Below the pieces are notes generated by a model. It ran no database searches and was not told the origin of the DNA. It saw only the letters and a program-made list of their open reading frames with translations. The position numbers and the translations under genes were made by a program. A DNA stretch of 40,862 nt from Deltaproteobacteria bacterium (lineage in GTDB: Bacteria; Bdellovibrionota; FAC87; UBA2466), in NCBI GenBank assembly GCA_016875135.1, contig VGSE01000003.1, positions 1-40,862 of the forward strand. The letters are read 5' to 3'. Shown one piece after another: positions 26,519 through 29,372 of this stretch. Position 1 is the stretch's first letter. Each line of letters starts with the position of its first letter.

Positions 26519-27820
26519 ATGGCTTCAAATTCCTGGACCCAAATAAGAGCGCATTTAAAGACCTCGCTCCCATCTCATGTTTACTCTTCTCTCGTAGAAC
26601 CAAGCTCTTTTTTTGAAAGAGACGATGCTTTAGAGATTCACTTTTTGGACAGATTTTCCAAAGAAAGTTTTGAGGAGAAGTGCCTTTCTCCCTTAAAAGC
26701 AGCTCTTAACGATCTTGCTCTAAGCTCCAAACGCGTAGAGCTTTTAATTCTCAAAACTCCGACGGCTCCAACTCAAGAGTCCGCTATCAGCCTTAGCTCT
26801 TTCAGCAGATTTGATCCTAAATACACTTTTGAAACTTTTGTCATTGGGTCCTCAAATCAATTCGCTCATGCTGCTTGCCAAGCGGTCTCAAAACAACCCG
26901 GCCAATGCTATAATCCACTCTTTATATTTGGCGGTGCTGGTCTTGGAAAAACCCATCTTCTTCGAGCCATCGGTTATGAGATTTCTAAATTTCAAAGTAA
27001 TTTGAAAATACTCTTTCTAACAAGCGAGGCTTTCACCAACGAACTGATACAGGCTATCCGCATCGACCGAATGCGGGAGTTTCGAGAAAAATACCGAACG
27101 GGGTGTGATGTTTTACTTCTCGATGACATCCATTTCTTAGCTGGCAAAGAAAGAACTCAAGAGGAGTTTTTTTACACGTTTAATTATCTTCATGAGTCTA
27201 GAAAACAGATCGTTATTACTTCAGACCGGTATCCTAAGGATATTCAAGGGTTGGAAAATCGACTTCAAACCCGCTTTGAATGGGGCTTAGTTGCGGATGT
27301 TCAACCGCCCGAAGTTGAAACCAGAGTGGCTATTTTGAAAAATAAAGCAGACGAGCAAAAAATATTACTTCCTGATGAAGTTGCCCATTATATTGCCTCT
27401 CATGTCACTTCTAACATCCGTGAATTAGAGGGATCTTTACATCGTCTCCAAGCCCATGCTTCATTAAATAATTCAAAGATTTCTCTAGATCTAGCACAGC
27501 ACACCTTGAGGGATTTGGTTCCAAAATTGCGACATGAGTTAACCCCTGATGGAATTTTGAAGCTCGTGGCCCTAACTTTTGGTTTAAAAATCTCTGAACT
27601 AAAATCGGATAAACGAGCGAGAAATCTAAGTGTGCCTCGACAGATCTGTATGTACCTTCTTCGTAAGCATCTCATGATGTCTCTGCCAGAAATAGGTACT
27701 TTTATGGGAAATAGACACCACACAACTGTTCTTCATGGAGTCAATGAGATCGTGAGCAGATCTAAAAAGGACCCAGAGCTCGAAATCAGCATTTCGAAAA
27801 TTGAGGGTTTGTTTCGTTAA
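26519..27820 (+). CDS. dnaA: Chromosomal replication initiator DnaA
   Basis: YNPLFIFGGAGLGKTHLLRAIG, DVLLLDDIHFLAGKERTQEEFFYTFN, RQICMYLLRKHLMMSLPEIGTFMGNRHHTTVLHG (DNA-binding domain IV). Confidence 0.98.
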   Translation: MASNSWTQIRAHLKTSLPSHVYSSLVEPSSFFERDDALEIHFLDRFSKESFEEKCLSPLKAALNDLALSSKRVELLILKTPTAPTQESAISLSSFSRFDPKYTFETFVIGSSNQFAHAACQAVSKQPGQCYNPLFIFGGAGLGKTHLLRAIGYEISKFQSNLKILFLTSEAFTNELIQAIRIDRMREFREKYRTGCDVLLLDDIHFLAGKERTQEEFFYTFNYLHESRKQIVITSDRYPKDIQGLENRLQTRFEWGLVADVQPPEVETRVAILKNKADEQKILLPDEVAHYIASHVTSNIRELEGSLHRLQAHASLNNSKISLDLAQHTLRDLVPKLRHELTPDGILKLVALTFGLKISELKSDKRARNLSVPRQICMYLLRKHLMMSLPEIGTFMGNRHHTTVLHGVNEIVSRSKKDPELEISISKIEGLFR

Positions 27821-27924
27821 AAGCCCTACCTTCTTTGATATCGCGCTGGGCAACTAACTTTCGAGGAGGTCTTTTTAAAAAAATACCCGTCTGTCTGGTA
27901 AAATTGATATACGTTACTATTGCC

Positions 27925-28200
27925 ATATGTGGATAAACCGGTATGCTTAAATTCTTACAAACTGTTAATAACTATGTTGAAAACATTGTTAATTGTTTGT
28001 TAATTGTTTGTTGAAAACTTGTTGATAACTTTTTATCCACAGTTCATCCACAGGTTTTAAAAAGTTATCAACAACGCTATCCACAAGAGGATCGTAAATG
28101 TTTTTGAAGACTTAGGTGAGTTATTAACATATTAACAATGCTAATTACTACTACTATAGATCTATATATCTATATAGAAAGAATAAAGATAATATAACGA
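27925..28200 (+). other. Chromosomal replication origin (oriC)
   Basis: dnaA-dnaN intergenic region with perfect DnaA boxes TGTGGATAA (27928-27936) and TTATCCACA (28033-28041), single-mismatch boxes TGTTGATAA (28020-28028), TCATCCACA (28044-28052), TTATCAACA (28065-28073), CTATCCACA (28077-28085), and an AT-rich unwinding-type segment (28121-28200). Confidence 0.93.
28145..28156 (+). promoter_or_regulatory. DnaA-trio-like element (TTA CTA CTA CTA)
   Basis: Complementary strand reads 3'-AAT GAT GAT GAT-5', matching the 3'-[G/A]AT-5' DnaA-trio repeat, next to weak DnaA boxes and followed by an AT-rich stretch. Confidence 0.65.
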
Positions 28201-28217: not shown

Positions 28218-29372
28218 ATGAAACTGCAGATTTCGAAAAGCCAAATGTTGTTAGGACTCCAACGTGTACAAAACGTTGTTGAGAGAAGAACAACTATGCC
28301 TATTTTGTCAAATGCGCTTTTAAAAACTGAAAAAGCTGGTCTTTCGTTGTCTGCGACTGATTTAGAGGTTGGAATTCAGTCGGTTTTACCGGCAGAAATC
28401 ATGGAAATTGGCTCGATAACGGTTAAAGCTAGAAGCCTTTTAGATATTGTTCGAGAACTTCCGGATACTGTGATCCAATTTCAAACTAAAGAGAACAATC
28501 GTTTAGAGATCAAAGCCAATAAATCTGTTTTCAATATTGTTGGTTTACCTGCGGAAGATTTTCCCGAAATTCCTAGCTTTTCCTCTGAAGAACACCAACA
28601 ATTTGTACGAATGAACGGTCAAGCTGTTATGGCTATGCTAGACAAAACTTTATACGCCGCTTCTACCGACGAAGCGCGTTACCATCTTAATGGTGTTTAC
28701 TTTGAAACTTTAGAGAACCCGCCTTCGGGAGATCAAAAGAGCAAAAAAGTTTTTAGAATGGTAGCAACAGATGCTCACCGTCTTTCCTTAGTCGATAACC
28801 CCGAGACACTATTTGATGAAAACGCATGGAAGTTGTTTCAAGAGGGAATTATTGTCCCGCGTAAAGGATTGAATGAACTTAGAAGGCTACTCTCAGAGGG
28901 TAAAGAGGACTTTTTTGTTACTATCAGAGGTAAAATGCTTTTTGTTAAGAGAGATAATATCTTTCTATCAATGCGATTAATAGAAGGAAAATACGCTGAT
29001 TATCGTCGTATCATTCCTGATCAATCGATTAATACTATTATGGTCGACCGAGAAGCCTTTCTAGCATCGCTTAAACGAATTTCTTTGATGTCATCAGATA
29101 AATCCCGTAGTCTTACTTTTTGCTTAACACCAGGGGTTTTGCAACTTTCAAGTCAAAGTCCAGAACTGGGTGATGCGAGTGAAGAAATCAATGTCGATTA
29201 TGAAGGCGAGCAATTTAAGATAGGTTTTAATTCCCGCTATTTGATCGATGCAGTCTCTACGATGGAAGGAAAAAAGATTGTTTTAGAAATTCGAGGAAAA
29301 CAAAATCCCGGGGTTATTCGATCCTCTGATGGGCCTAATCACACCAGTGTGGTGATGCCGATGAGAATCTGA
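28218..29372 (+). CDS. dnaN: DNA polymerase III beta sliding clamp
   Basis: MKLQISKSQMLLGLQRVQNVVERRTTMPILSNALLKTEKAGLSLSATDLEVGIQ ... VVMPMRI C-terminus. Confidence 0.98.
   Translation: MKLQISKSQMLLGLQRVQNVVERRTTMPILSNALLKTEKAGLSLSATDLEVGIQSVLPAEIMEIGSITVKARSLLDIVRELPDTVIQFQTKENNRLEIKANKSVFNIVGLPAEDFPEIPSFSSEEHQQFVRMNGQAVMAMLDKTLYAASTDEARYHLNGVYFETLENPPSGDQKSKKVFRMVATDAHRLSLVDNPETLFDENAWKLFQEGIIVPRKGLNELRRLLSEGKEDFFVTIRGKMLFVKRDNIFLSMRLIEGKYADYRRIIPDQSINTIMVDREAFLASLKRISLMSSDKSRSLTFCLTPGVLQLSSQSPELGDASEEINVDYEGEQFKIGFNSRYLIDAVSTMEGKKIVLEIRGKQNPGVIRSSDGPNHTSVVMPMRI

Follow-up and report, generated by a model that had tools for sequence, protein, structure and literature searches.

Bacterial replication origins are said to be so diverse that rules are difficult to discern. 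The stretch of DNA analysed here (the window; 40,862 nucleotides) carries an array of DnaA-box-like 9-mers between dnaA and dnaN, and it raises the question of whether their spacing follows a rule and which DnaA would read them. On the plus strand, the genes run in the order dnaA (26519 to 27820; open reading frame of 433 amino acids, DnaA1, matched by Pfam and TIGR00362 profiles), dnaN (beta clamp; open reading frame at 28218 to 29372), gyrB, and gyrA, and the minus strand upstream of dnaA carries mnmG-, mnmE-, and yidC-like genes and rnpA, with gene names assigned by eye from the translations. The 397-bp dnaA-dnaN intergenic region contains clustered DnaA boxes, as in an oriC of the dnaA-dnaN type. 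The source genome (G000) consists of 290 contigs, and GC skew, read within the 40.9-kb contig, turns from negative to positive at about 28 kb. The position between dnaA and dnaN, the downstream gyrB and gyrA, and this change of sign bear out the oriC proposed in an earlier, sequence-only reading of the window. An RNA or tRNA element was rejected, as the window has no Rfam or tRNA match. Close relatives are represented by metagenome genomes whose titles read Bdellovibrionales/Bdellovibrionaceae or "Deltaproteobacteria," several of them derived from lakes. We consider it highly probable that the region is the chromosomal origin of an uncultured freshwater Bdellovibrionota-type bacterium, combined with the two-arm platform and unwinding module described below.

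The left arm consists of six weak sites in the minus orientation: F1 (TGTTAATAA, 27963 to 27971, a weak box with A at position 6, or A6 class), F2 (TGTTGAAAA, 27975 to 27983), F3 (TGTTAATTG, 27987 to 27995), F4 (TGTTAATTG, 27998 to 28006), F5 (TGTTGAAAA, 28009 to 28017), and F6 (TGTTGATAA, 28020 to 28028). All 11 of the 9-mers quoted in the sequence-only reading were found letter for letter where it had placed them, and its left-arm steps of 12, 12, 11, 11, and 11 bp were reproduced on re-measurement. In the orientation of the boxes themselves, these steps run 11, 11, 11, 12, and 12 bp, and the constant quantity within the arm is a gap of 2 to 3 bp (3, 3, 2, 2, and 2 bp). The same reading had described about ten sites on one face of the helix. 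This description holds for neighbors, which at 10.5 bp per turn are displaced by 51 degrees (12 bp) or 17 degrees (11 bp), but not for the whole arm, as F1 to F6 cover 57 bp, or 5.43 turns, and drift by about 154 degrees.

As a null model for the array, we generated 5,000 versions of the 397-bp intergenic region by dinucleotide shuffling. A six-member chain with 11- to 12-bp steps appeared in none of them (the longest shuffled chain had three members), and the count of 10 boxes with at most two mismatches (null mean, 1.7) was never reached. At a looser cutoff of at most three mismatches to TTATCCACA, neither the number of boxes nor the chain was significant, because F3 and F4 are four mismatches from the consensus; therefore, the case draws its strength from the relatives. 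A chance origin of the array was ruled out by the shuffles together with conservation. Additionally, the genome has no second run of three TGTTNA slots phased at 11 bp.

All five genus members with a readable origin (G000 to G004) carry a consensus box, F0 (TGTGGATAA, 27928 to 27936, minus strand), 35 bp before F1. It was not found in other genera, save for TGTTAATCA at the equivalent place in G007. In the weak promoter-like site TTGCCA-16-TATGCT, the spacer overlaps F0. A side role of the array as a dnaN promoter is conceivable, with a promoter scan that gave two promoter-like matches versus 1.8 in shuffles, that is, no excess. The genus also conserves ATACGTTAC...TTGCCATATGT at 27909 to 27931, 54 to 33 bp before F1, and G007 and G014 have GCCATACAT at a comparable position.

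The right arm faces the left one in the plus orientation. It comprises R1 (TTATCCACA, 28033 to 28041, a consensus box with C at position 6, or C6 class), R2 (TCATCCACA, 28044 to 28052), R3 (TTATCAACA, 28065 to 28073; TTATCCACA in all four readable genus-mates), and R4 (CTATCCACA, 28077 to 28085). These boxes are mostly consensus, and their steps of 11, 21, and 12 bp leave one gap of 2 bp, followed by gaps of 12 and 3 bp. In each of the order's 12 readable origins, the distance from F6 to R1 is 13 bp, with a 4-bp junction between the arms. A perfect 17-bp inverted repeat (28019 to 28035 and 28058 to 28074) ties F6 to R3 across this junction; it is perfect in the window because R3 is TTATCAACA and not TTATCCACA.

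The array had been taken to end at 28085. Instead, it is followed by two further co-oriented boxes, DnaA-trios, and an AT-rich stretch. Sequence and comparison place R5 (TTATTAACA, 28121 to 28129, A6 class) and R6 (ATATTAACA, 28129 to 28137, 8 bp after R5) on the plus strand as the upstream and downstream boxes of an unwinding module, and place the trio array at 28146 to 28156 on the minus strand (top strand, TACTACTACTA; bottom strand, 3'-GAT-5' repeats). The AT-rich DNA at 28157 to 28200 is the presumed unwinding element, by analogy with the Basal Unwinding System and Bdellovibrio papers. R5 and R6 are tandem, co-oriented, and within 0 to 16 bp of at least three trios (TACTACTACTA), and together with the trios and the AT-rich DNA they match the Basal Unwinding System, as judged from their sequence. 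The spacer between box and trios is not GC rich; it reads ATGCTAAT (28138 to 28145) in the window and is AT rich or mixed in 11 of 11 origins of the order, compared with GG, GGCCC, or CCCCC in most other families. A GC-rich spacer before the trios is usual but not mandatory (PMC8235120). R4 and R5 are separated by 44 bp in the window, and 43 to 44 bp is also seen in several other families. The 9-mer abutting R5, TTAGGTGAG (28112 to 28120, plus strand), has TTARGTGAG variants at that place in other families; in many families of the phylum, among them Bdellovibrio-like ones, TTARGTGAG-like or CTTAGG sequences lie almost equally far from the trios.

The sequence-only reading had proposed that relatives be compared for conservation of spacing over sequence, and had named loss of the 11- to 12-bp periodicity in close relatives as grounds for abandoning the array. 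We sampled 15 genomes of the order, 12 of which had readable origins. In all 12, which are related and include five genus members near-identical in the arm, TGTT is present at offsets 0, 12, 24, 35, 46, and 57 (72 of 72 slots, with no insertion or deletion), so the periodicity is retained, and R1 follows at offset 70 from F1. Averaged over alignment columns, conservation reaches 1.00 in TGTT, 0.875 in the remaining bases of the 9-mers, and 0.75 in the gaps. Of 369 genomes of the phylum, 9 contain the six-slot pattern when either T or G is accepted at base 4. Each has it once, all belong to this order, and it always lies just upstream of dnaN; the reversed control pattern had no match among the 369 genomes.

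The ruler extends beyond the left arm. From R1 to R6 the distance is 96 bp in nine of 10 complete origins and 97 bp in the other; from R6 to the trios it is 17 bp in nine of 10 complete origins (nine of 11 order origins); and the full length from F1 to the trios is 183 bp in eight of 10. Identity of the R-side spacers to the window falls as low as 23 to 31% in G009, G010, and G013, with a change in length of at most 1 bp. Because the 183-bp length is kept while the spacers diverge, spacing is conserved more than sequence, and these results support strong selection on spacing in these genomes. The distances from the dnaA stop codon to F1 and from the trios to the dnaN ATG vary across the order. 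Furthermore, dnaA sits about 4 kb (L063, G010) or 6.6 kb (L064, G009) from the oriC/dnaN unit, with other genes between, and there the array keeps company with dnaN and the trios. Since it stays with them and away from dnaA, it does not serve to control dnaA, and dnaA autoregulation was rejected as its function.

Other families of the phylum bear on whether the 9-mers are DnaA boxes at all. At the equivalent place, they carry perfect TTATCCACA boxes in chains with 11- to 12-bp steps, and this, of all the sequence evidence, most strongly suggests that the weak TGTT slots are also DnaA sites, as had been assumed. Steps of 11, 11, 12, and 12 bp or of 11, 12, and 12 bp recur there with consensus-type boxes. 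Across 59 origins from these families, distances between same-strand boxes with at most two mismatches peak at 12 bp (88 pairs) and 11 bp (34 pairs), with further peaks at 23 to 24, 33 to 36, and 43 to 45 bp. In family f8 (L094, L096, and L099), chains of three to four perfect TTATCCACA boxes with 11- to 13-bp steps occur in both orientations, and each intergenic region has two box clusters.

Next to the spacing, we found a change in box class. Among boxes in 11- to 13-bp chains, A at position 6 is present in 62 of 69 from the order versus 11 of 110 from other families. The trio-side box R6 is of the A6 class in 11 of 11 order origins versus 2 of 27 in other families, and R1 to R4 and F0 are mostly C6. 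Additionally, base 4 is T in all 72 F slots and is never the consensus G. An order-specific change from TTATNCACA to TTATNAACA thus affected the left arm and R5/R6 and spared the right arm.

We then considered the initiator encoded beside the array. DnaA1 scores 229.7 bits for Pfam Bac_DnaA, 89.9 bits for Bac_DnaA_C, and 492 bits for TIGR00362, and the Pfam search gave no DnaA_N match for the DnaA1 of the window. Its AAA+ and helix-turn-helix domains are intact and its N-terminal domain I is barely recognizable; across the DnaA1 proteins of the order, domain I scores 22 to 28 bits or is undetected. In DnaA generally, individual residues are known to contact single-stranded DNA, to form the arginine finger, or to contact bases. 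The residue roles used here were drawn in part from PMC6669920. In E. coli numbering, DnaA1 retains I211/R245, R227, R281, R285, and R334 almost throughout, and it departs at T418 (L or R in the order) and D433 (H in the genus). The H at the otherwise conserved D433 (NRHHTTV; residue 400, window positions 27716 to 27730) is found in five of five DnaA1 proteins of the genus, with D retained elsewhere in the order. D433H was rejected as the cause of the TGTT boxes, as H433 is limited to the genus of the window and the TGTT slots are order wide. Family f10 has N at the D433 position and many TTATGCACA boxes (L195), which is possibly a shift in specificity. No near-consensus DnaA box was found within 460 bp upstream of dnaA1 in 13 of 13 genomes.

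In nearly all genomes of the order, the dnaA search also returned second matches, with about 30% identity. These belong to a full-length DnaA of about 460 to 490 amino acids with DnaA_N, AAA+, and helix-turn-helix domains, which we call DnaA2 and which is present in 14 of the 15 genomes. A full-length gene lies at L142 2959 to 4407 (minus strand); in the genome of the window, the last 64 amino acids, 98% identical to a genus-mate, are at the end of contig C160 (L174 5015 to 5209, minus strand). The neighbors of dnaA2 in G000, G002, G009, and G014 are a UPF0093 (HemJ-like) gene and/or xseA. Since G001 lacks the whole dnaA2-xseA locus, its lack of DnaA2 is probably an assembly gap. No DnaA2 ortholog was found in 44 other genomes of the phylum, where the best matches are ordinary DnaA; families f7 and f9 have weaker second DnaA-like proteins of another kind. 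DnaA2 forms one clade with a long stem (support, 100/100), in which the members from genera g1 and g6 group together as they do in DnaA1.

DnaA2 has all three domains of the family (DnaA_N, 44 to 60 bits; Bac_DnaA, 112 to 134 bits; Bac_DnaA_C, 79 to 91 bits), and against the TIGR00362 threshold of 343.9 bits, two proteins score above (345.0 and 367.5) and one scores below (309.9). K178, D235, D236, R285, and R334 (Walker A/B, arginine finger, and sensor II) are kept in 12 of 12, and V211/R245 (contact with single-stranded DNA) and R281 are missing. The recognition helix is changed in 12 of 12, with one residue deleted and with T435 to A and P423 to E exchanges (FGRDHATV), so that it departs from the canonical D-H-T-T. 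Domain decay is complementary: DnaA1 has a weak or undetected domain I and has kept its single-stranded DNA and filament residues, and DnaA2 shows the reverse. Of 12 genomes, nine have near-consensus boxes upstream of dnaA2, with positions of about -238, -226, and -101 the most common.

In all likelihood, this oriC has a two-arm DnaA platform that feeds a Basal Unwinding System on a fixed ruler. The six weak slots F1 to F6 and the four mostly consensus boxes R1 to R4 would form two opposed arms on which DnaA monomers bind head to tail with 2- to 3-bp gaps, growing toward the 4-bp F6-R1 junction, so that the array could act as the filament-nucleation platform suggested earlier. The complex would be coupled over the fixed 44 bp to R5/R6, this pair would load DnaA-ATP onto the adjacent trios, and the AT-rich DNA before dnaN would open. 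Points that weigh against this reading are the four mismatches of F3 and F4 to TTATCCACA, the failure of F1 to F6 to match the published NNWTCCACA consensus of Bdellovibrio bacteriovorus (PMC5124646), and the missing GC-rich spacer before the trios. A DnaA protein, DnaA1 or DnaA2, would occupy every slot, in a presumed order of filling, and the left arm may serve as a threshold device owing to its weakness. It is very improbable that the left arm is instead the site of another regulator, a dnaN or dnaA promoter-control element, or a phased-A-tract bend. Six near-identical slots could suit a repressor, and the overlap of F0 with a promoter-like spacer points the same way, but the distance to R1 to R6 and the trios is fixed, sister families carry perfect DnaA boxes in phased chains, the promoter-like matches are at shuffle level, and the invariant part is TGTT, not A-tracts.

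Within the two-arm platform, the slots could be filled by one initiator or by two. An arrangement in the style of E. coli, in which DnaA1 would fill all slots, the weak F1 to F6 last or only as DnaA-ATP and thereby timing initiation, and in which DnaA2 would act elsewhere as a transcription factor or regulator, stands at about even probability. It accords with the E. coli design of opposed weak arrays with 2-bp gaps and sites that mostly prefer DnaA-ATP (PMC6727663), and with the retention of the weak class, seen in the T at base 4 of every F slot. However, ATP preference is not readable from sequence, and this arrangement leaves unexplained both the class change in R5/R6, with R6 changed in every order origin, and its coincidence with DnaA2. 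Those two points are accommodated if DnaA2, alone or in a mixed filament with DnaA1, recognizes the TTATNAACA slots (F1 to F6 and possibly R5/R6), with DnaA1 reading R1 to R4 and controlling dnaA2 through the consensus boxes in its promoter. We put this attractive combination forward tentatively, on evidence that is entirely comparative. Box class and DnaA2 have equal taxonomic ranges, with DnaA2 confined to the order (0 of 44 others) and altered in its recognition helix throughout; the protein is a single clade in which g1 and g6 group as they do in DnaA1; boxes precede dnaA2 and not dnaA1; and the two proteins have decayed in complementary domains. Against it, the order is one clade with one origin of each trait, so that the correlation, drawn from a search of one phylum, has an n of 1 and the shared range, a single evolutionary coincidence, is suggestive. 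DnaA1 itself also deviates at T418 and D433, and G001 lacks DnaA2, albeit probably through its assembly. A general rule that any second DnaA-like protein predicts A6 arms was rejected, as families f7 and f9 have such proteins and no A6 arm. A two-initiator reading refines the two-arm explanation without contradicting it. In its fullest form, an origin built for two initiators, with two box classes on a fixed ruler shared or divided by two diverged DnaA proteins and with DnaA1 controlling dnaA2, it is doubtful.

The 183-bp ruler is near-exact to the base pair and the spacer sequence is free, which makes a spacing rule directly testable. The order is also a natural case in which one box base was changed at eight positions, the six arm slots and the unwinding pair, in one lineage, which also encodes a second DnaA whose recognition helix is altered. 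This clade thus makes testable in vitro the question of whether two initiators can share one bacterial origin. What is new here is the order-wide switch in box class and the second DnaA of the same order, both of which the sequence-only reading had missed.

Opposed arrays with 2-bp gaps are already known from E. coli, whose oriC has two such arrays of four weak sites each (PMC6727663). In that oriC (R5M-tau2-I1-I2 / C3-C2-I3-C1), the opposed weak-site arrays are anchored by strong boxes, with one constant gap to the box beside the unwinding element (PMC6727663). The locus resembles it in this general layout, closely in the left arm (gaps of 2 to 3 bp) and in part in the right arm, whose boxes are mostly consensus and whose gaps are 2, 12, and 3 bp. 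It differs in that six weak slots are in one arm and mostly consensus boxes are in the other, the arms converge on a 4-bp junction with gaps of 3, 3, 2, 2, and 2 bp, R4 is 44 bp from the tandem pair (compared with 55 bp from R1 to R5M in E. coli K-12), the tandem boxes are 8 bp apart and followed by clear trios, and the weak class is a single base change, C6 to A. The Basal Unwinding System was described in B. subtilis and is predicted in most bacteria; R5/R6 resemble B. subtilis DnaA-boxes 6 and 7 in being co-oriented tandem boxes with a short spacer, TACTACTAC trios, and AT-rich DNA upstream of dnaN (PMC8287927, PMC10721633). Here, however, both boxes are of the A6 class and 8 bp apart, with 9-mers that share one base, and ATGCTAAT replaces the usual GC-rich spacer. 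In B. subtilis, helical phasing became apparent when a distal box was moved (PMC6669920).

The oriC of Bdellovibrio bacteriovorus is likewise dnaA-dnaN intergenic, with a box cluster, an AT-rich unwinding element, and trios; it has eight boxes, two of them inside dnaA, with the consensus NNWTCCACA (PMC5124646). It differs in having no six-slot arm, and F1 to F6 do not fit its consensus. In the phylum set, no member of the Bdellovibrio-like family f6 has a chain longer than three boxes. In the H. pylori oriC1/oriC2 origin, five oriC1 boxes are separated by 2 bp, a spacing called optimal for the filament; as with our left arm, this run is located away from the unwinding element, at which a ts1/ts2 pair and trios are found (PMC8235120). 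That origin is bipartite and its box sequence differs, whereas ours is a single intergenic region. Two dnaA copies per genome are also found in Chlamydiales, and those of Waddlia both lie away from the GC-skew minimum (PMC2878342). In contrast, DnaA1 is encoded here at oriC, and DnaA2 is encoded beside the UPF0093 (HemJ-like) gene and xseA.
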